In this document: positions 7,085 to 31,928 of the stretch, piece after piece
Position numbering within the stretch: the stretch's first letter is position 1
Layout of the letters: every line of letters begins with the position of its first letter
Virus record (IMG/VR): IMGVR_UViG_3300029993_000021
Span: 1-32,962 of that record
Source of the DNA: a virus
Length of the DNA: 32,962 nucleotides
Reading direction: 5' to 3' (one strand)
Notes under the pieces: generated by a model
What the model saw: only the letters and a program-made list of their open reading frames with translations
Told to the model about the DNA's origin: nothing
Database searches by the model: none
Translations under genes and position numbers: made by a program

Positions 7085-7234
7085 ACTGACGAGATTCTTG
7101 TCAGTTTCCTATAAAGCCCTCTACTCCCTATTATACAATAAATAGAAACCCCCCTTTGTACTTATCTCTGAATTCTGTTTTGGTAGACTCTCCGTGTAGA
7201 GTGTTTTCTTGTCAGTTCGTCAGTATCGTCAGTA
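7085..7234. repeat. TYGTCAGT octamer repeats in the divergent control region
   Basis: TCGTCAGT or TTGTCAGT occurs at 7085-7092 (minus), 7098-7105 (plus), 7209-7216, 7217-7224 and 7226-7233 (plus). The last three are back to back with 8- and 9-base periods. The first two face each other around a 5-base spacer. The region 6977-7294 has no gene, is more AT-rich than its surroundings, and separates the leftward nuclease operon from the rightward packaging genes. The repeats look like operator or origin iterons. Possible -10 sequences (TATTAT at 7130-7135) lie between the two clusters. Confidence 0.55.
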
Positions 7235-7294
7235 CTACCGCCAGGGTAAAAGGCCAAAATGCAACAAACCCGCACGTTAGGCTAAACTTGGGCC

Positions 7295-7771
7295 ATGACT
7301 GCTACCGCCTTCGACCTGCAGCCCGTCAAAGCGTCCCTTGTGGCCGATCTGGTCGGGCTGATCAATATCAACCTCGCCGACTTGTTGCAGGTGAAGGCCA
7401 TCACGTGCGGCAGCTGCGACGGGGTAGGCGTACTGGGCGATGCGGAGATGCGCACCGAGATGACCTGCGCTACCTGCGGCGGTCTGGGCGCAGTGGAACA
7501 GTTCGTGTTCGACATGGCCCGGATGAAGTCCGTGCAATTCGGCCGGCTGATTGAGGGTTGGGATGTAAAGCAGGGCCAGATCGTCCCGAAGCTGCGCAGC
7601 AAGGACAAATCGTTCGCCATGCTGGTCAAGCTGCTGGGCTTCGATAAGGCCATTCTCGAAATCACCAACGCGGCGCCCTTCGCCGAGTCCATCTCCGACC
7701 AGCAGCGCGAGACGTACGTGGAGCAGCTCAAGGAGCTAGCTGCCGCCGGCCTTCTGGATGCCCGCCAGTGA
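7295..7771 (+). CDS. Putative small terminase subunit with DnaJ-type zinc motif
   Basis: This 158-residue protein lies directly before the large terminase and overlaps it by GTGA, the usual place of TerS. Residues 38-64 carry two C-x-x-C-x-G-x-G half motifs (Cys38/41 and Cys58/61) as in DnaJ zinc fingers, separated by 16 residues, enough for one zinc site. The C-terminal half is helical with 'KSFAMLVKLLGFDKAILEIT' and 'YVEQLKELAAAGLLD'. TerS recognises phage DNA and regulates TerL. Here the assignment comes mainly from position, since the sequence does not match a TerS family I recognise. A motif GGCTAAACTTG lies just before the ATG. Confidence 0.6.
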   Translation: MTATAFDLQPVKASLVADLVGLININLADLLQVKAITCGSCDGVGVLGDAEMRTEMTCATCGGLGAVEQFVFDMARMKSVQFGRLIEGWDVKQGQIVPKLRSKDKSFAMLVKLLGFDKAILEITNAAPFAESISDQQRETYVEQLKELAAAGLLDARQ

Positions 7772-9282
7772 CCGGCGCGTGCCTAGCCGTTACCCACCCG
7801 CCCAACGTGGCCGCGAGCCCTGGCGGTGGCAGTCTGCAAGCCGTGGACCCCATTCAGTTCTTGATCGAGGCGGCGCGAACCAATTACGCCGCGTTCGTGT
7901 CTGCCGTACACCGGCCGCGCTTCCGGCACTCGGCCTTCTCGGCACGGGTGTGCCGGGAAATTGACGTCTTCGTGGAAGACGTGCTGGCCGGCAAGCGCCC
8001 GGTCCTGATGCTCACGGCAGGCCCCCAGCACGGTAAGAGTTCGCTTATCGCACGCTGCCTGCCGCCCTATTTGTTCGGCCGGCTGACTGGCGAGTTGCCT
8101 GCCGTGCGTATCGCTTGCGCGTCCTATGCACTCAGTTTGGCGCGACGCAACACGCGCGACGCAGCGGGCATCATGGACGAGCCCATCTACCGGGCCATCT
8201 TCCCGCACACCGCGCTCATCGGTTTTAAGGGTACGCGCACGTCCGACGGCTTCGATGTGCCGCAAGGCGGTGGCTTGCGCGGCGTGGGCGTGGGCGGCGG
8301 CCTCACGGGTTTCTCGCTTGACATCGCCATTGTGGACGACGCCACATCCAACGCTCAGCAGGCGCTATCGACCGTCGTGCAGGACGGGCTAGAGGCATGG
8401 TACGAGTCCGTACTCATTACCCGCCTGCAACAGCGATCGGGAACCGTCATCATTGGCACACCCTGGTCAGCCAACGATCTGTTAGCGCGCGTGCGGCGTA
8501 AAATGGAAGGTGATCCGCGCTTTCGGCGGCTGTCGTTCCCGGCGCTCAACCTACCCAGCGAGATTGGCTACGACCCAGAGCTGCCGGAAGGCGCGCTCGT
8601 TCCTGAATTGCACAGCGAGGCCAAGCTGCGCGAGATGAAAGCCCACATGTCCGAGATGTGGTGGGCATCTCTTTTTCAGCAAACCCCGCTCGCAGAATAC
8701 GGAGCGATCTTCAAACGCGATCATGTTCAATATTACCGACGCGCTGAGCTACCGGCGAACCTCGTTCAGTGCATAATTTCGGTTGATGCTACCTTCAAGG
8801 ATGGCGACGCGAGCGATTATGTCGGCGTCGGCGTATGGGGCAAGACAAGCGACGATCGAGTGTGGTTGCTGGACTGGCGGCGTGAGAAACTCGCGTTTAT
8901 GGCCACAGCATCGGCTATCGTCGATCTCAAGAAGAAGCACCCACGGGTAGCGCGCATCTACATCGAGGACGCAGCCAACGGCAGCGCCTTGATCGACATG
9001 TTAAAAAAACACATTACCGGTCTCGTCGGCGTGCCGCCGATGGGCTCGAAAGAAGCGCGTGCCCATGCGGTAAGCTGGGTCTGGCAAAATAAGTGCGTCA
9101 TGCTCCCCCATCCTGACGAGAATCCCGGCATCGTGCCGGTTGTGGCCGAGATCACCAGCTTCCCCGACGTGGCCAACGACGATATGGTGGACATGATGAC
9201 TATCGCATTACATCAACTATGCTTGCGGTCGCCGATCGCCTCACTTATCACAGCGGACGTATTACGGATGGCAACCCAATGA
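7768..9282 (+). CDS. terL: Terminase large subunit
   Basis: This 504-residue protein is the ATP-driven packaging motor and nuclease. The ATPase shows a Walker A variant 'AGPQHGKSS' (84-92), Walker B 'LDIAIVDD' (184-191) and a coupling-type 'IIGTPW' (228-233). The C-terminal RNase H-like nuclease has 'IISVDATFKDG' with Asp340 as the first metal ligand and a late 'NDDMVDMM' acidic cluster. Length is normal. The start is GTG 7768, overlapping the upstream TGA; the portal gene follows with an ATGA overlap at 9279. So three packaging genes are translationally coupled. Confidence 0.95.
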   Translation: MTGACLAVTHPPNVAASPGGGSLQAVDPIQFLIEAARTNYAAFVSAVHRPRFRHSAFSARVCREIDVFVEDVLAGKRPVLMLTAGPQHGKSSLIARCLPPYLFGRLTGELPAVRIACASYALSLARRNTRDAAGIMDEPIYRAIFPHTALIGFKGTRTSDGFDVPQGGGLRGVGVGGGLTGFSLDIAIVDDATSNAQQALSTVVQDGLEAWYESVLITRLQQRSGTVIIGTPWSANDLLARVRRKMEGDPRFRRLSFPALNLPSEIGYDPELPEGALVPELHSEAKLREMKAHMSEMWWASLFQQTPLAEYGAIFKRDHVQYYRRAELPANLVQCIISVDATFKDGDASDYVGVGVWGKTSDDRVWLLDWRREKLAFMATASAIVDLKKKHPRVARIYIEDAANGSALIDMLKKHITGLVGVPPMGSKEARAHAVSWVWQNKCVMLPHPDENPGIVPVVAEITSFPDVANDDMVDMMTIALHQLCLRSPIASLITADVLRMATQ

Positions 9283-15598: not shown

Positions 15599-16612
15599 AT
15601 GACCATGAAAGACTCTCAGCTTATCGCCCAGCTTGCCTCGCGCGGTGTCGTGCTGGCCCCGGGTGTGACCGACATCTCGACCCCCTCCAGTGCTTACGCG
15701 ATGGACGCAGCGAGCCTGACGCCGACCCTTATCGGCACCCCGAACGCGGGTATCCCCACGTTCCTGACCACCTACGTTGACCCAAAGGTGATCGAAGTCC
15801 TCGTCGCCCCGATGAAGGCCGCCGAGATTGTCAGCGAGTCCAAGAAGGGCGACTGGACCACCTTGACGGCTGCCTTCATCCAGGCTGAGCCGACCACACG
15901 TGTCGCCACCTACGGCGACTATTCGTCGGACGGCACCAGCAACACGAACGTCAACTATCCGCAGCGCCAGTCCTACTTCTTCCAGACCTGGACCCGTTGG
16001 GGTCAGCGCGAGCTGGCCATGGCCGGCGCGGGCCGTGTGGATTGGGCCGCCCAGCTCAACTATTCCAGCGCGCTGGGTATCGCCAAGTTCCTGAACTCAA
16101 CGTACCTGTTCGGCGTGGCTGGCCTGCAGAATTACGGCCTGACCAACGACCCGCGCCTCGTGGCCCCGGTAGCCGCTCCGGTCAACTGGGCAACCGCAAC
16201 CCCGGATGCGATCTACAACGACATCGTGACCAGGTACGGCCAGCTGGTCACCCAGTCGGCGGGCATCATCGAGCAGGAAGACGAGCTGCGCCTGGCCGTC
16301 GCTCCGAGCGCAGCAGCCAACCTCAACAACACGAACATCTATGGTCTGTCCGCCGCCAAGCTGATTCGCGACGCGTTCCCCAAGATGTCCATCGTCACCG
16401 TGCCGGAGTTCGACACGGCTGCCGGCCGCCTGGTGCAGCTGTGGGCACCGGTCATCGAGGGTCAGGAATCGGCAACCTGTTCGTTTACCGAGAAGATGCG
16501 CGCGCATGCGATCGAGACGTACAGCTCGTACTACCGCCAGAAGAAAAGCGCCGGATCGTGGGGTGCAGTGATCTTTCGTCCTCTGGCGTGTGCACAGACC
16601 CTTGGGGTGTAG
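15599..16612 (+). CDS. Major capsid protein, DUF2184 family
   Basis: This 337-residue protein shows the DUF2184 pattern: 'GIPTFLTTYVDPKVIEVLVAPMKAAEIV' in pieces, 'DWTTLTAAFIQAEPTTRVATYGDYS', 'NVNYPQRQSYFFQTWTRWGQRELA', 'LFGVAGLQNYGLTNDP', and a C-terminal 'AHAIETYSSYYRQKKSAGSWGAVIFRPLA'. It forms the HK97-fold capsid shell. AAGGGA precedes ATG 15599; ATG 15605 two codons later is equally possible. It is followed by a strong terminator, consistent with high expression. Confidence 0.92.
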   Translation: MTMKDSQLIAQLASRGVVLAPGVTDISTPSSAYAMDAASLTPTLIGTPNAGIPTFLTTYVDPKVIEVLVAPMKAAEIVSESKKGDWTTLTAAFIQAEPTTRVATYGDYSSDGTSNTNVNYPQRQSYFFQTWTRWGQRELAMAGAGRVDWAAQLNYSSALGIAKFLNSTYLFGVAGLQNYGLTNDPRLVAPVAAPVNWATATPDAIYNDIVTRYGQLVTQSAGIIEQEDELRLAVAPSAAANLNNTNIYGLSAAKLIRDAFPKMSIVTVPEFDTAAGRLVQLWAPVIEGQESATCSFTEKMRAHAIETYSSYYRQKKSAGSWGAVIFRPLACAQTLGV

Positions 16613-16635: not shown

Positions 16636-16665
16636 AGAAAGGCCCGGCTCATGCCGGGCCTTTCT
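16636..16665. terminator. Strong bidirectional terminator after the capsid gene
   Basis: AGAAAGGCCCGGC and GCCGGGCCTTTCT form a perfect 13-base-pair stem with loop TCAT, carrying its own A and T tracts on both strands. It ends capsid transcription 24 bases after the stop. For the convergent endonuclease gene the stop codon lies in the loop (16649-16651), so its last residues are encoded by the right arm. Confidence 0.9.
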
Positions 16666-18166
16666 GCATCCAACGCCACAGTTTCTTCCCGCTGTCCCAC
16701 ATGCGAAAAGCGTTCACGGCGTCCTCGATGTCCCATTCGGTACGGAGATCAGTCGCGGGATCGAATGCCAAGTCGGTGCGGCCTATCTGTCGCAGCCGCG
16801 CCGGCAGTTGTTTACGGGCCCAGGAACTCTTAGGCCGGAAGCCGAGTGCATGGTGATACACGCGATAGTCAGGCGGGATCTCGCGCGCCAGCTCGAAGCC
16901 CATGTGTGCGTACGTGCCGCCGTCGAACCAGTCGTTGGCGGAGTAGGAAACAACTTCGCGGCAGCCCAGCGTGCGCACGGCGTGCGCGAATAACTTGGAT
17001 GCGCCGCCCCGCACGCGCGCTGACGTAGCGAACCGCGTGAGATCCCACACGCCCGACTCGACGCGGTTGCGGTCATAAGCGTCCTTAGCTAACGTCATCA
17101 CCGCGACCAGGCCGTGCGCGGGGTGCACGAGTCCGAACCGGTGTGCATAGACTGCGCCCGGCTGCTGCGGGTGGTGACGATCGAGAAACGCTACCGTTTC
17201 GGTATTAGGAATCGGCTCAACCGTGCAATCGCGAGCATGCAGCGCCGGACGGTTGTCGCAGCCCAGCGCCGCCCGTAGCAGATTCTCGAAAGGCGCCCGC
17301 CGCTCGGTCCAGTCCTTGCAGGCAATGGCGATCAGCCGGTAGCCCGCAGCCTTGCACGCTTGATGCTTAATACGTGCTGCGGCCCGCTCGCGCGTGCGCC
17401 GATCGGAATGCCAGTACACGTCATTTAGCTCAATAGCTACGCCACGCGACGGCACGACGATGTCTAGTTCTTTCGGCTTGATGATGGTCCGATCGGACTG
17501 GTAGGCGTCAGGACAGAGCGCCTGCACGAAAGCGAACAGGTCGCACTCGGTCGGTGAAGGGGCGCCGCTGACGCATTTTTGGCACCCGTAGCCGTGTCCG
17601 TGGTTTGCAGGAGTCTGCTCGAATGGTCCGTGTTTAGGGCAGACGATGGTGACTTTGTCGAGTGCCTGGCGGTAGACCGTCTGCGAGTAGTTGTATTTGT
17701 CGCCATGGGCGGCGCGCGCACGTTCCACGAAATGCGCCAAGTCTTTCTGGCGCCCCGCTGCTTTGCGCAGGTTTCCGCATGCGGGGCAGCCTCGCCCCTG
17801 TGTGTGCCAGCCTGCTACCTGCTTGAAAGGACCGTGCGCTGCACAGCCTATCGCCACACATAGCTGATCGCCGCGATATTCCACGTGGCTATAGTCATAC
17901 AGGTCACCATGCACTGCGCGGGCTTTGACGATCCAAGCTGGCGTGTCGAAGCGCTGCCTATCACCGCGCGCGATGTAGCTGCATTCTCGGCAATGGTCGC
18001 CTTCAGCGTGCTTGCCCGCCGCTTGCTTGAAGGGTCCGTGATCCGGACAGATGATGGTGATCTTGGCCTTGCCGCCGTGGATCGTCTGCGGCGGATAGGT
18101 GTAGCGGTCGCCGTGTTTTGCGGCGAAACGAGCCAGCCAGGTTTCTGTGGTGATAGGTGCGTTCAT
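16649..18166 (-). CDS. Free-standing Vsr-like (EDxHD) homing endonuclease with zinc repeats and acyltransferase-like tail
   Basis: This 505-residue protein has three tandem repeats of about 53 residues at 10-62, 77-130 and 144-198, each ending H-G-x-F ... H ... C-x-x-C ('HGPFKQVAGW', 'GRGCPAC'), like the DUF723 zinc repeats of phage endonucleases. The nuclease follows: 'PTECDLF' (Glu207), 'KELDIVVPSRGVAIELNDVYWHSD' in pieces with Asp235, Glu246, His253 and Asp255, the pattern of the EDxHD (I-Bth0305I/Vsr-like) family. The C-terminal 200 residues look like a GNAT fold ('RGGASKLFAHAVRTLG', 'MGFELAREIP', 'YYHALGF'-like). It probably cuts DNA of rival phages near the capsid locus and spreads itself. 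Function of the tail is not known. Confidence 0.8.
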   Translation of the reverse strand: MNAPITTETWLARFAAKHGDRYTYPPQTIHGGKAKITIICPDHGPFKQAAGKHAEGDHCRECSYIARGDRQRFDTPAWIVKARAVHGDLYDYSHVEYRGDQLCVAIGCAAHGPFKQVAGWHTQGRGCPACGNLRKAAGRQKDLAHFVERARAAHGDKYNYSQTVYRQALDKVTIVCPKHGPFEQTPANHGHGYGCQKCVSGAPSPTECDLFAFVQALCPDAYQSDRTIIKPKELDIVVPSRGVAIELNDVYWHSDRRTRERAAARIKHQACKAAGYRLIAIACKDWTERRAPFENLLRAALGCDNRPALHARDCTVEPIPNTETVAFLDRHHPQQPGAVYAHRFGLVHPAHGLVAVMTLAKDAYDRNRVESGVWDLTRFATSARVRGGASKLFAHAVRTLGCREVVSYSANDWFDGGTYAHMGFELAREIPPDYRVYHHALGFRPKSSWARKQLPARLRQIGRTDLAFDPATDLRTEWDIEDAVNAFRMWDSGKKLWRWMQKGPA

Positions 18167-18220
18167 GGCTTCAGGTTATCACGTCTGACGCGTGGGGCGC
18201 AATGCTTAGCACAGCACTCA

Positions 18221-18232
18221 GTTTGATATGCT
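18221..18232 (+). promoter_or_regulatory. Extended -10 promoter, copy 1 (GTTTGATATGCT)
   Basis: GTTTGATATGCT contains TG-n-TATGCT, an extended -10 with TATGCT at 18227-18232. The same 12 bases occur at 19512-19523. The expected start is about 18239. It points into a stretch without genes that ends at a terminator (18284-18310). No -35 was found. Confidence 0.6.
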
Positions 18233-18238
18233 AGTGTC

Positions 18239-18310
18239 GTTTGAGACCTCCGGCGGAGTGGGCGCCGCCGCAGCTCGAACAGGAAGGCCGCCGCAAGGCG
18301 GCCTTTCTTT
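18239..18310 (+). ncRNA. Candidate small structured RNA (about 72 nt)
   Basis: The predicted start of the extended -10 promoter falls on GTTTGAG (18239-18245), which pairs with CTCGAAC (18274-18280) in a 7-base-pair stem with one G-U. Inside it CGGCGG (18251-18256) pairs with CCGCCG (18265-18270) around an 8-base loop. A terminator hairpin with T-rich tail closes the unit at 18284-18310. There is no rightward open frame. Promoter, fold and terminator in register make a stand-alone RNA gene likely, but expression is unproven. An alternative is a transcriptional insulator. Confidence 0.5.
18284..18310 (+). terminator. Intrinsic terminator of the candidate small RNA
   Basis: AAGGCCGCC pairs with GGCGGCCTT (9 base pairs) around GCAA, followed by TCTTT on the plus strand. 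The opposite strand lacks a U tract, so it serves rightward transcripts. It abuts the stop of the leftward gene at 18309. Confidence 0.8.
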
Positions 18311-18524
18311 ATGACACGGTGATGCGCACGACTCCCCCACCCGTAGCATGCAACCAGCGGCTTTGGATAGCACTTGGTTGGTTATGGACCCAACTGTCAC
18401 CAGGCGTCCGCATGCGCCAAGCAATAAAGGCAGCCTGCGCGGTCGGGCCGCAACCACACCAGCGACCATCCGCGCAGTACCATGCTGGGTAGTGTTTTGA
18501 CTTGGTGAGATGCGGCTTGTTCAT
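18309..18524 (-). CDS. Small protein of unknown function
   Basis: This 71-residue protein begins MNKPHLTKSKHYPAWYCADG and has 'GCGPTAQAAFIAWRMRT', resembling short phage proteins that display a substrate-like motif, but no family is recognised. It is tied by an ATGA overlap to the upstream gene, and is the last of four small leftward genes. Confidence 0.6.
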   Translation of the reverse strand: MNKPHLTKSKHYPAWYCADGRWCGCGPTAQAAFIAWRMRTPGDSWVHNQPSAIQSRWLHATGGGVVRITVS

Positions 18525-18940
18525 CGTGGGCCGCCATAGGGCGGACCACTAAAGTACGTAGGCGCAGGCGTGCGGCGCCGGATGCCATAAAGCCCCGCAA
18601 CCTCATCCAATGCTGCACCGCTAGCTACTTGGACGGCCGCAGCCCGTTCGGCCGCAGCGCCGCAGCCCGCCATGATGCCTAGCAAGCGCTCGCGCAGCTC
18701 GTCGTCGGACTCGACAGCGGGCGCGGGCGCAGCCTTCGGCGCTAGCGTGCGGCCTAGCGTGATGTTCTTGCTGGCCCGCACGTGCCGGTTGGCGTACGTC
18801 CAGACCTCGCCGGTCTCGGTGATGAAGATCGTCCAGTACAGATCTGATTCCGGGCCGTAGTCGATCAGCAGGTGCGCGAAGCCTTCGCCCTTTGGGCAGG
18901 TCATCGGCAGTGGCGGGTTGAGCTGCAGGGCGGTGCTCAT
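18521..18940 (-). CDS. Hypothetical protein of the small leftward cassette
   Basis: This 139-residue protein has a beta-rich first half ('MTCPKGEGFAHLLIDYGPES', 'YWTIFITETGEVWTYANRHV') and an Ala-rich helical second half ending in Pro/Gly-rich sequence. No family is recognised. The first half looks like a small folded domain seen in phage accessory proteins. It starts 1 base after the stop of the next upstream gene and overlaps the following gene by ATGA. Confidence 0.65.
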   Translation of the reverse strand: MSTALQLNPPLPMTCPKGEGFAHLLIDYGPESDLYWTIFITETGEVWTYANRHVRASKNITLGRTLAPKAAPAPAVESDDELRERLLGIMAGCGAAAERAAAVQVASGAALDEVAGLYGIRRRTPAPTYFSGPPYGGPR

Positions 18941-18941
18941 A

Positions 18942-19232
18942 TCAGCGTGTCCATCGTTCGCGTTCCTCTAGCATGGCCGGTGTCAGGGCCGGATTGTGGT
19001 CGCACCAGCGCGAGCCGCGCCGATGCGGAAAGTGATAACCCTGGCAGCCCGAACGGTCGGGCCGGCAAGTGTCCTTGCGGTGCCGCTCGTGCGCCTGGCG
19101 CCACCCGTCGACCCGTAGCAGCCCTTTGCCGCAGTGCCGGCACTTAGGCGGACGCACATAGGACTCAGGGTGCCAGCGGATCGTCTGGCGGGCCTGGCAG
19201 GCTTTGCGGCGGCAGCGACAGGGCCAGCTCAC
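18942..19232 (-). CDS. Cys/His-rich small protein, putative zinc binding
   Basis: This 96-residue protein has 'CRCRRKAC' near the start, 'PPKCRHCGKGLL' (C-x-x-C), and later 'HRKDTCRPDRSGCQGYHFPHRRGSRWCDHNP'. The many Cys and His residues suggest one or two zinc sites. It is Arg-rich and could bind nucleic acid. GTG start at 19232 lies 2 bases after the upstream stop. Function unknown. Confidence 0.6.
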   Translation of the reverse strand: MSWPCRCRRKACQARQTIRWHPESYVRPPKCRHCGKGLLRVDGWRQAHERHRKDTCRPDRSGCQGYHFPHRRGSRWCDHNPALTPAMLEERERWTR

Positions 19233-19234
19233 GG

Positions 19235-19435
19235 CTAAGCCGCCGTGAGCGCGGATTCAACCATGTTCATTTCGCGACTGACCGGCTTACCCTTCTCGTT
19301 GACCTGCACCACGCCGTAGATGTGCTCGCCGACCGTTTCCGACCAGCGATGGCCCATTACCACGAAAACGCCATAATGACGGCCGTTGACCGCCTGGTGG
19401 GTGCAAAACTTGGCTTCGGGAATCATCGTGGTCAT
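19235..19435 (-). CDS. Small protein, first gene of the leftward cassette
   Basis: This 66-residue protein begins MTTMIPEAKFCTHQAVNGRH and has 'YGVFVVMGHRWSETVGEHIYGVVQV', a short beta-rich fold. No family recognised. The start at 19435 is well supported by AGGAGA 7 bases upstream and by a promoter at 19462-19490; a start at 19474 would lie upstream of the transcription start. Confidence 0.65.
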   Translation of the reverse strand: MTTMIPEAKFCTHQAVNGRHYGVFVVMGHRWSETVGEHIYGVVQVNEKGKPVSREMNMVESALTAA

Positions 19436-19461
19436 GGCGCTGTCTCCTGTGGTGTGGATGA

Positions 19462-19490
19462 AGCTTAGGCGCACCTCACGGCGATGTCAA
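19462..19490 (-). promoter_or_regulatory. sigma70-type promoter of the small leftward cassette
   Basis: On the minus strand a perfect TTGACA (19485-19490) lies 17 bases before TAAGCT (19462-19467). The leader that follows carries the recurrent ATCCACACCACA motif before the Shine-Dalgarno. It is divergent from the rightward promoter at 19512. Confidence 0.7.
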
Positions 19491-19511: not shown

Positions 19512-19523
19512 GTTTGATATGCT
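19512..19523 (+). promoter_or_regulatory. Extended -10 promoter, copy 2 (GTTTGATATGCT)
   Basis: This is the same 12 bases as at 18221-18232, with TATGCT at 19518-19523 in TG-n context and an expected start near 19530. It restarts rightward transcription of neck and tail genes after the leftward cassette. Confidence 0.65.
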
Positions 19524-19565
19524 GACCGCACCAAACCGTTCGCCCACCTACACGGAGAATCTTCC

Positions 19566-19943
19566 ATGCCCGCTCCCAAGCGTTCCGCTAAGACCGTTTC
19601 CATCGCCTGCAAACTGCCGCAGGGCCTGACCGTTCACCTGCTCGCTGCCGATGGTACCGCCGGCCCGGTGGTCAAGCTGCACGGCGCCAATTCGCCGTTC
19701 AACATCGCCGGCCATGGCATCACCCAGAATGTGCCGGTCGAGCACTGGGAAGCCATCCAGAAGCAGCATGCGCATGCGCTGTGGCTCAAGAACGAGTTCG
19801 TGTTCGCCAACGGCGACGGCGACGATCTGATCGAGGAAGCCAACGACAAGACCAAGAACCGTAACGGGTTCGAGGCGATCGACCCGAACAATCTGCCGGG
19901 TGTGATCCAGAACGACGGCGAAGACGATCCGGGCAAGGCTTAA
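19566..19943 (+). CDS. Hypothetical virion/head protein
   Basis: This 125-residue protein has 'VSIACKLPQGLTVHLL', 'GITQNVPVEHWEAIQKQHAHALWLKNEFVF' and an acidic tail ending 'NDGEDDPGKA'. Similar small proteins follow the DUF2184 capsid gene in related phages, but their role is unclear. ATG follows CGGAGA. Four bases separate it from the DUF4054 gene. Confidence 0.65.
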   Translation: MPAPKRSAKTVSIACKLPQGLTVHLLAADGTAGPVVKLHGANSPFNIAGHGITQNVPVEHWEAIQKQHAHALWLKNEFVFANGDGDDLIEEANDKTKNRNGFEAIDPNNLPGVIQNDGEDDPGKA

Positions 19944-20423: not shown

Positions 20424-20902
20424 GCGTGACTCGCCGCGGGCTGCGCCTGCCATCGAGCATGGCCGACCAGTTCAAGCCGGGCAGCGTACGCGCTGGCGTG
20501 CTATCCGGTGCGACGTATCCGGCTGCCGTGCTGACCAACGCGGCCACAGGCGAGAAGCGCCCGGATCCGCGCGCCGGCATGCCGGTAGCGCTCATTGCCG
20601 CCGCGCTCGAATACGGCGAGGGGCAGAATCATCCGCGACCCTTCATGTCGACCACGTTTGCCAAAGAGTCCAGCACCTGGGCCAACGCGTTCACGACGCT
20701 ACTAAAGAACGGCGAAGGCGCCGAGTCGGCGCTGGGCACGGTGGGCCAGGTGATGAAAGAGGACGTGCGCGCTACTGTGCTCGAATGGCCGGCAGATAAC
20801 GCCGAGTCGTGGGCCGAGTTCAAGGGCTTTTCACATGGTTTGATTCTGACCGGACACCTGTCAAACTCCATCGAGTCCGAAGTGGCCATGGGGAAAGACT
20901 AA
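20420..20902 (+). CDS. HK97 gp10-like neck / tail completion protein
   Basis: This 160-residue protein carries 'ALIAAALEYGEGQNHPRPFMSTTFAKES', the 'EYG-.-HPRPFM' signature of gp10/virion-morphogenesis proteins that join head and tail, followed by 'TGHLSNSIESEV' at the end. The GTG start at 20420 overlaps the previous TGA. Its TAA overlaps the HNH endonuclease ATG. Confidence 0.8.
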   Translation: MSVTRRGLRLPSSMADQFKPGSVRAGVLSGATYPAAVLTNAATGEKRPDPRAGMPVALIAAALEYGEGQNHPRPFMSTTFAKESSTWANAFTTLLKNGEGAESALGTVGQVMKEDVRATVLEWPADNAESWAEFKGFSHGLILTGHLSNSIESEVAMGKD

Positions 20903-21465
20903 TGGAGCAGTGGAAGCCGGTTGTAGGGTTTGAAAGTCAATACGACGTGAGCAACCGGGGTCGCGTGCGGCGGCGCGCTCGCACTGTTATGCGCAGCACA
21001 GGCGCCAGTTACAAGGTGTCCGAGAAAGTATTGTCGCCCGTGACTTACGGGCACAAACGTCTTTATCTGGGTATCGGATTCAAAGTCGCGCCCAAAACTA
21101 GCCGTGTGTTTGGCGTGCATCGTTTGGTAGCTGAGGCGTTTTTGCCGAATCCCGAACAGTGGCCTGACGTTAATCACAAGAACCTCGACAAGCTGGACAA
21201 CCGCGTCGAAAACTTGGAATGGTGCACCAAAGTAGCGAACCAAGAACATGCAGCAAAACGCGGTCGTTTCCACGGTCGAACCAATCCCAACGCGCGTTAT
21301 AAGCTGCAGCCCGAACAGGTTGATGCGATCCAAGCGCAATTGGCTGCGGGCGCTTCGCAAGCGTTACTAGCGGCCGAATATGGCGTTTCGCGCACAATGA
21401 TCAGCATGATCAAGACAGGCCGGACTTGGGCGCAGCCTGCCGAGGTGTACGCACATGTCGTGTGA
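20902..21465 (+). CDS. HNH homing endonuclease (NUMOD4 + HNH_3)
   Basis: This 187-residue protein has an N-terminal NUMOD4 domain ('EQWKPVVGFESQYDVSNRGRVRR', residues 2-24), an HNH domain with 'HRLVAEAFLPNP', 'DVNHKNLDKLDNRVENLEWCT' in pieces (about 73-113), and a C-terminal helix-turn-helix ('LLAAEYGVSRTMISMIKTG', about 153-172). It is a free-standing intron-less homing endonuclease, cutting near its own locus in related phages. ATG 20902 overlaps the TAA of the neck gene, so it is inserted cleanly between late genes. Confidence 0.9.
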   Translation: MEQWKPVVGFESQYDVSNRGRVRRRARTVMRSTGASYKVSEKVLSPVTYGHKRLYLGIGFKVAPKTSRVFGVHRLVAEAFLPNPEQWPDVNHKNLDKLDNRVENLEWCTKVANQEHAAKRGRFHGRTNPNARYKLQPEQVDAIQAQLAAGASQALLAAEYGVSRTMISMIKTGRTWAQPAEVYAHVV

Positions 21466-31259: not shown

Positions 31260-31928
31260 TCAGGCCCCCGCATCGCACAGATACAAGAACTGGCAGCCGG
31301 GCGATTGCAGTTCGATCAGTGCGTTAAGTGCAATCGTGCATGCGGTAGCCAGCACTTCATCACGGGCGCCGCCTACGCCGGCGTAGGCGGCGTAGGCGGC
31401 GGCGTAGGCGGCGTAGGCGGCGTAGGCGGCGGCGTAGGCGGCGGCGTAGGCGGCGTAGGCGTAGGCGTAGGTGCGTGCTACTGACTTAGCATTTAACGCA
31501 GCTTCGCGATTGCCGTCCTTTTCACACTGTCGCGCAGCTGCTTCGAGTTTCTCACTATGCGCCGGATTGCCAATCTTGGCACGTAGCGCCCGCGGCACGA
31601 TCTGTCGAATAGTCTGTTCGGTCACAATGCGCACGAACTCCTGTTGATCGATGCTATCTGAACCGAGCTGCGCGACAGCCAAGCGACGCAAACCCTCGGT
31701 GCGGGCTGCATCGGAACTCCAGAGTGCGTCGTTGATACGGATCTTGAAAATGCGCACAGCGTCGCCGACACATGTCGGCCTGTCGCTATGCGGCAAACCC
31801 ATGGCGTAGCACACGGCCGCCTCGACGCACATGGCGCCTGGTGTGGGCTTACCGAGTCCGTCGACTAGCCCGGCGTCGACCGTATCGAGTACTTTGCGGG
31901 CCAACGTTTCGTTCAATTCGTAAGACAT
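31260..31928 (-). CDS. Hypothetical protein with an Ala-Tyr tandem repeat
   Basis: This 222-residue protein has a folded-looking first two thirds ('VDGLGKPTPGAMCVEAAVCYAMGLPHSDRPTCVG' in pieces, 'FKIRINDALWSS', 'VRIVTEQTIRQIVPRAL'). Then come about 33 residues built almost only from AYAA/AYA units (residues about 151-183). A short hydrophobic end follows ('VLATACTIALNALIEL'). The repeat is encoded by GGCGGCGTAGGC-type units on the plus strand (about 31377-31472). The N-terminal part resembles a common phage protein of unknown role. Strong promoter at 31959-31987 and leader CACACCACACC. Confidence 0.7.
   Translation of the reverse strand: MSYELNETLARKVLDTVDAGLVDGLGKPTPGAMCVEAAVCYAMGLPHSDRPTCVGDAVRIFKIRINDALWSSDAARTEGLRRLAVAQLGSDSIDQQEFVRIVTEQTIRQIVPRALRAKIGNPAHSEKLEAAARQCEKDGNREAALNAKSVARTYAYAYAAYAAAYAAAYAAYAAYAAAYAAYAGVGGARDEVLATACTIALNALIELQSPGCQFLYLCDAGA
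31377..31472. repeat. GTAGGCGGC-type tandem repeat within a gene
   Basis: Repeats of GCGTAG joined by GGC or GGCGGC run for about 95 bases, all in multiples of 3, encoding Ala-Tyr units on the minus strand. Length change by slippage would keep the reading frame. Confidence 0.85.

Follow-up and report, generated by a model that had tools for sequence, protein, structure and literature searches.

The window analysed here, 32,962 bases long, is an entire virus record and comes from a phage that is kin to the Bcep781 group and to Xanthomonas phages, the closest named major capsid proteins (MCPs), those of Bcep1 and Bcep781, being ~65% identical to its own. A minus-strand block (16649–19474) separates the MCP gene from the virion operon, which opens with n125, a conserved gene for a 125-residue protein of unassigned function. 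The predicted model of this protein (pLDDT 71) had no match in the PDB, and its homologues are all uncharacterized viral proteins. A small RNA had been predicted in a gap with no gene. At the unit itself this is correct, but the gap is bounded by minus-strand ORFs, one starting at 18166 and one ending at 18309, so the terminator of the unit also faces a convergent minus-strand gene. Elsewhere in the window, an RNA ligase (Pfam PF09414; 12762–13361, minus strand) lies in a minus-strand block among the head genes, a NUMOD4/HNH endonuclease gene (20809–21465, plus strand), probably a further mobile insertion, sits within the virion operon, and the protein encoded at 31260–31928 (minus strand) carries a long Ala-Tyr repeat (AYAAYAAAYAAY...).

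Table 1. Features of the window bearing on the candidate small RNA and its proposed target.
Feature	Position	Strand	Details
Terminase	7768		
Portal	~9219		
Major capsid gene (MCP)	15602–16612	+	PHROG 264; start approximate, as in relatives
MCP replacement terminator	16636–16665		13-bp perfect inverted repeat
HNH/homing-endonuclease-like gene between MCP and small RNA	16649–18166	−	PHROG 559
Putative extended −10 promoter	18221–18232	+	GTTTGATATGCT; TGn 18224–18226, TATGCT 18227–18232; 5 nt before the conserved block
Candidate small RNA unit, ~72 nt	18238–18310	+	Predicted start 18238–18240, end in T-run; conserved in L003–L006, L008 and L009
Hairpin 1	18239–18280	+	Outer stem GTTTGAG 18239–18245/CTCGAAC 18274–18280; inner stem CGGCGG 18251–18256/CCGCCG 18265–18270
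Apical loop, proposed seed	18257–18264	+	AGTGGGCG (RNA, AGUGGGCG); constant apart from a G-to-A change in L008
Intrinsic terminator	18281–18310	+	12-bp stem 18281–18292/18297–18308, GCAA tetraloop, T-run to 18310
Convergent ORF facing the small RNA terminator	18309–18524	−	
Putative promoter of n125, next gene of the virion operon	19512–19524	+	GTTTGATATGCTG; motif GTTTGnTATGCTG kept in the clade
Proposed target site in the n125 leader	19541–19547	+	CGCCCAC, complementary to loop GUGGGCG
n125, proposed target, heading the operon after MCP	19566–19943	+	PHROG 2085; 125 aa, function unassigned

The nested stems and the intrinsic terminator of the original prediction are all present (Table 1), and the terminator was also detected by a terminator scan. 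The minimum free energy of 18237–18309 is −44.3 kcal/mol (z = −4.4), a value that none of 200 shuffled sequences equalled. The unit contains no conserved ORF, as no frame survives the indels of L006 and L009, and an 18-residue small ORF (GTG at 18258) was excluded because indels in the relatives disrupt it. Two further readings of the RNA were dropped: that of the loop as a CsrA site, its GGA context being a misfit to ANGGA, and that of the loop, or of ACCUCC in the internal loop, as an anti-Shine-Dalgarno sequence, the internal loop not being conserved.

A search of viral contigs with the MCP yielded 70 loci, two of which, L002 and L007, nearly duplicate the window and are not counted as separate lineages. 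The stretch 18238–18313 aligns to six other lineages (L003, L004, L005, L006, L008 and L009), in most of them starting exactly at 18238, and conservation halts at the T-run, while the flanks on both sides are unrelated in most pairs. Pairwise identity of the unit within these seven phages is 84–100%, as against 52–76% at the four-fold degenerate sites of MCP, and the L005 copy is identical to that of the window. The nine variable columns are concentrated in unpaired positions (8 of 23 unpaired versus 1 of 52 paired; Fisher p = 0.0002), the terminator tetraloop remains of GNRA type (GCAA in the window; GCGA, GGAA and GTAA in relatives), and the inner stem of L006 lacks one base pair on both sides. 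Covariance-model matches with E<1e-17 were confined to the seven phages, and a second, alignment-based search for relatives gave no further close members. A tight DNA pattern found no copy in the GTDB species genomes, and neither INPHARED nor PLSDB contained a full match. The one tight match outside these phages, in L233, is a coding coincidence, and the matches to a loose pattern are mostly chance hits in coding sequence. Rfam gave no match at the gathering threshold in the window or three sister loci, and its hits at relaxed E-values were weak, chance or terminator-like. Since the edges of conservation fall at the predicted start and at the T-run, the comparative data favour the discrete small RNA, with a promoter and a terminator of its own, that had been proposed. 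That this is a genuine RNA unit is strongly supported by these patterns, and it is highly probable that the unit is discrete and functional.

The MCP stop codon (GGC GTT TGA G) falls within the conserved block in L003, L004 and L008, and this overlap indicates that the element was ancestrally the 3′ end of the MCP mRNA. In these three phages the element shares its 3′ end and terminator with that mRNA, as in a 3′UTR-derived RNA, whereas in the window it has been displaced. The intervening gene is an HNH/homing-type endonuclease (PHROG 559) in the window and in L009, a GIY-YIG-like homing endonuclease in L005, where its stop codon overlaps the element, and a different plus-strand gene in L006. 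Where displacement has occurred MCP ends at another terminator. In an MCP tree the seven phages form one clade (98/96) in which attached and displaced forms are interleaved, although the inner forks are weakly supported. This interleaving implies that displacement recurred and that the unit survived each time, so displacement probably took place more than once. The description of a free-standing small RNA therefore applies to the unit as it stands in the window and requires amendment for its ancestry at the capsid mRNA 3′ end.

At least two families of free-standing homing-type endonucleases have used the 3′ end of MCP as an insertion hotspot (window, 16649–18166; L005, 7098–8027; L012, ~7098–8070; L239, 5056–6111, XapPhi2), and insertions at this position are also found in the named Xanthomonas phages XapPhi1–6. 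Tandem MCP paralogues occur in L014 (2280 and ~3024) and L026 (1001 and ~1806), where the palindromic hairpin GTTTCACGTGAAAC, in this or a variant form, and a terminator come after the second paralogue; the same arrangement follows the MCP of L024 and L025.

The extended −10 sequence GTTTGATATGCT, with its TGn and TATGCT, is present ahead of the unit as predicted, and its identity over 12 bases to a second promoter is confirmed, the window's two copies of the 12-mer (18221 and 19512) matching without mismatch. The 13-base form of this motif in the clade, GTTTGnTATGCTG, occurs in the window with at most one mismatch only at these two sites, against a chance expectation of 0.13 per 33 kb over both strands. 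A plain sigma-70 scan misses the site ahead of the small RNA because no convincing −35 precedes it and because TATGCT fits the −10 consensus at only four of six positions; the promoter would thus be of the extended −10 type. Ahead of n125, GTTTGnTATGCTG has been conserved in the clade while the rest of the leader diverged, and it is found there with no or one mismatch in six of the seven phages, the L009 copy being more diverged. At the small RNA unit it lies at a fixed distance in the window (one mismatch) and, in weaker form, in L009 (two mismatches). Across the seven phages the window unit is the sole site with at most one mismatch beyond the n125 promoters, and the other matches recovered when two mismatches were allowed are scattered. 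This own promoter is likely to be active in the phage, and the motif supports the predicted start and co-expression with the n125 operon; its assignment to a ‘late’ class we infer from the genes that it serves.

Among the relatives, an intergenic TATACT precedes the element of L006 at the same 5-nt spacing. L005 has TATATT at this spacing but within endonuclease codons, and this site and the TATACT of L012, likewise located in an endonuclease tail, were downgraded as promoters since they may be coding coincidences. The GIY-YIG-like endonucleases (L005, 8001–8027; tails of L012 and L033) end in GKF(A/E)Y, the codons of which yield TATATT or TATACT directly ahead of the L005 and L012 elements and may thereby supply a built-in promoter for sequence behind the insertion. 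No promoter was seen before the element in L003, L004 or L008, where a free RNA would consequently need to be produced by processing.

A second version of the element, type B, is found between the MCP stop codon and the terminator in L010, L011, L013 and L221, with the same two-hairpin architecture as type A, the version of the seven phages, and the loop ACUGGACCA. In L012, which belongs to the MCP clade of L010, L011 and L013, type B is displaced behind a GIY-YIG-like endonuclease and has the loop CUUGGACCA. The two types have in common their position, their architecture and the A(C/G)UGG start of the loop, and common descent is likely on these grounds. Compensatory changes in the stems, proposed as a check of the original prediction, are seen in this sister clade, where, over four sequences, 4 of the 10 stem pairs have both bases replaced around an unchanged loop core; none was found in the type A stems, which hardly vary within their close clade. 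A hairpin GTCTC-AGTGGT-GAGAC also precedes the post-capsid terminator in L016 and L021, with a close variant in L017, and its loop begins with AGTGG, as does that of type A.

Through GUGGGCG, the type A loop AGUGGGCG has a complementary sequence in the n125 leader of each of the seven phages. The matching sequence is CGCCCAU overlapping the start codon in L004, L006, L008 and L009, GCCCAC between the Shine-Dalgarno sequence and the start in L003 and L005, and CGCCCAC at −25 in the window, farther upstream than in the other phages. The sole changed type A loop, that of L008 (AAUGGGCG), converts a G–U pair with the leader into an A–U pair. When the loop was paired with the start regions of genes in 13 conserved families, n125 was its best mean partner (−12.8 kcal/mol versus −9.8 for the next), the match having first been spotted by eye. 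Permuted loops equalled this pairing in 2–6 of 336 cases depending on the measure (p ~0.01), a post hoc estimate for a match of 6–7 bp. After the cost of opening the leader, net pairing energies of −3.6 to −12.4 kcal/mol remain, which is still favourable. In type B, the loop core UGGACCA is in turn complementary to UGGUCC directly before the n125 start in L011, L013 and L221, and the record of L012, an out-of-sample case, combines the core of the B loop with UGGUCC in the leader of n125. In a cross-test the A loop paired as well with only 1 of 41 non-A leaders and the B loop with none of 45 non-B leaders, although the relatedness of the n125 leaders within each clade leaves few independent observations of the match. 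A comparison of whole 3′UTRs with leaders found no general pairing signal in the other relatives. The complementarity is suggestive of n125 as the target, an assignment towards which we lean slightly, and that the unit is a base-pairing regulator of some kind is reasonably probable.

The reading that we favour, by a modest degree, is that of a capsid-derived base-pairing small RNA of ~72 nt, free-standing in the window, which represses n125. Its ancestral state would be the 3′ end of the major capsid mRNA, as kept in L003, L004 and L008, and insertion of the homing-endonuclease-like gene between MCP and the element would have made it a free-standing unit in the window, where the RNA would be made from the extended −10 at 18221, stopped by the intrinsic terminator and transcribed alongside the virion operon through the common promoter class. 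The 8-nt apical loop, with GUGGGCG as the seed, would pair in trans with the n125 leader, limit initiation and so lower translation, tying the output of n125 to capsid synthesis or to its own operon; in phages with the attached form the same sequence would couple the capsid mRNA itself to n125. If the pairing with n125 occurs, repression is much to be expected over activation. More tentatively, the two sister clades may be taken together to suggest that the 3′ end of the capsid mRNA regulates the next virion gene in trans, with loop and leader co-evolving, and that after the endonuclease split selection kept a free-standing small RNA gene with the promoter class of its target operon.

The element could instead be no more than a strong bidirectional terminator with a stabilizing hairpin upstream, ending the capsid transcript on the plus strand and a convergent transcript on the minus strand and having no function in trans. 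Its position next to the capsid gene and opposite a convergent gene in L003, L004 and L008, the family-wide occurrence of post-capsid terminators and the ability of the stem to fold on the opposite strand are all in keeping with this. We nevertheless consider it unlikely, as the terminators of relatives diverge freely whereas the loop and 5′ arm of the element are almost invariant, as the displaced unit has a promoter of its own and no coding gene even though the capsid gene has acquired a new terminator, and as the loop–leader matches of two clades would be left unexplained. It is also rather improbable that a real small RNA acts here on a host mRNA, a host RNA-binding protein (as, for example, an Hfq or CsrA sponge) or a phage protein instead of n125: the invariant loop, the GGA at the stem–loop junction, the U-rich tail and the sequence-invariant stems, which suggest contacts beyond pairing, would suit such a partner, but neither a host target nor protein binding predicts that the sister clade should have a different loop and that each loop, within its own phages, should fit the leader of one and the same gene. 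A site acting as DNA, such as a recombination junction or the target of a homing endonuclease, located where the capsid gene ends and homogenized by repeated homing, might be suspected from the two unrelated endonuclease families inserted here and the overlap of the L005 endonuclease stop codon with the element, but is very improbable given block edges that coincide with the predicted start and terminator and are sharp where co-conversion predicts graded ones, variable positions that are unpaired (p = 0.0002) and a promoter motif at fixed spacing.

Functional small RNAs of lytic phages are, to our knowledge, scarce, and targets are known for even fewer. The natural series described here, with capsid-attached, displaced and free-standing forms, the last with a promoter, and with two loop types and their matching leaders, makes the origin of small RNA genes from mRNA 3′ ends directly testable and likewise opens RNA control of virion stoichiometry to direct test. 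It suggests a route by which a 3′ end beside a hotspot for mobile endonucleases may become an independent gene. Both the origin at the capsid 3′ end and the likely partner go beyond what a single sequence could reveal.

Comparison with known systems places the candidate window RNA outside every Rfam family, and no sequence relation was found to the stand-alone phage small RNAs sRNA1 and sRNA2 of PAK_P3, PreS and VpdS, which resemble it as short non-coding phage RNAs (PMC4933390; PMC12197685). The PAK_P3 RNAs, from a virulent phage, reach high abundance late in infection but differ from the window RNA in their position between other genes, and no target is established for them (PMC4933390), while PreS and VpdS are set apart as Hfq-dependent RNAs of temperate phages (PMC12197685). 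DicF, from a defective lambdoid prophage of E. coli K-12, is like the proposed RNA in being phage-derived, of 3′UTR origin and a base-pairing repressor with a Rho-independent 3′ end; it differs in its host target, ftsZ, and in its processing by RNase E, where the window RNA would have a target in the phage virion operon and a promoter-defined start (PMC9438474). The window RNA appears most like the 3′UTR-derived small RNAs, although free-standing. OppZ of Vibrio cholerae and DapZ of Salmonella share a terminator with an mRNA, as the element does in L003, L004 and L008, and DapZ has a promoter near a stop codon, as here (PMC9438474; PMC7398697). The window RNA departs from both in lying among phage virion genes and in being detached from its parent gene. 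OppZ, a 3′UTR-derived RNA that adjusts part of its own operon (PMC9438474), represses that part to set stoichiometry, as is proposed here (PMC9438474; PMC7398697), and may serve as the closest working analogy for the mechanism.
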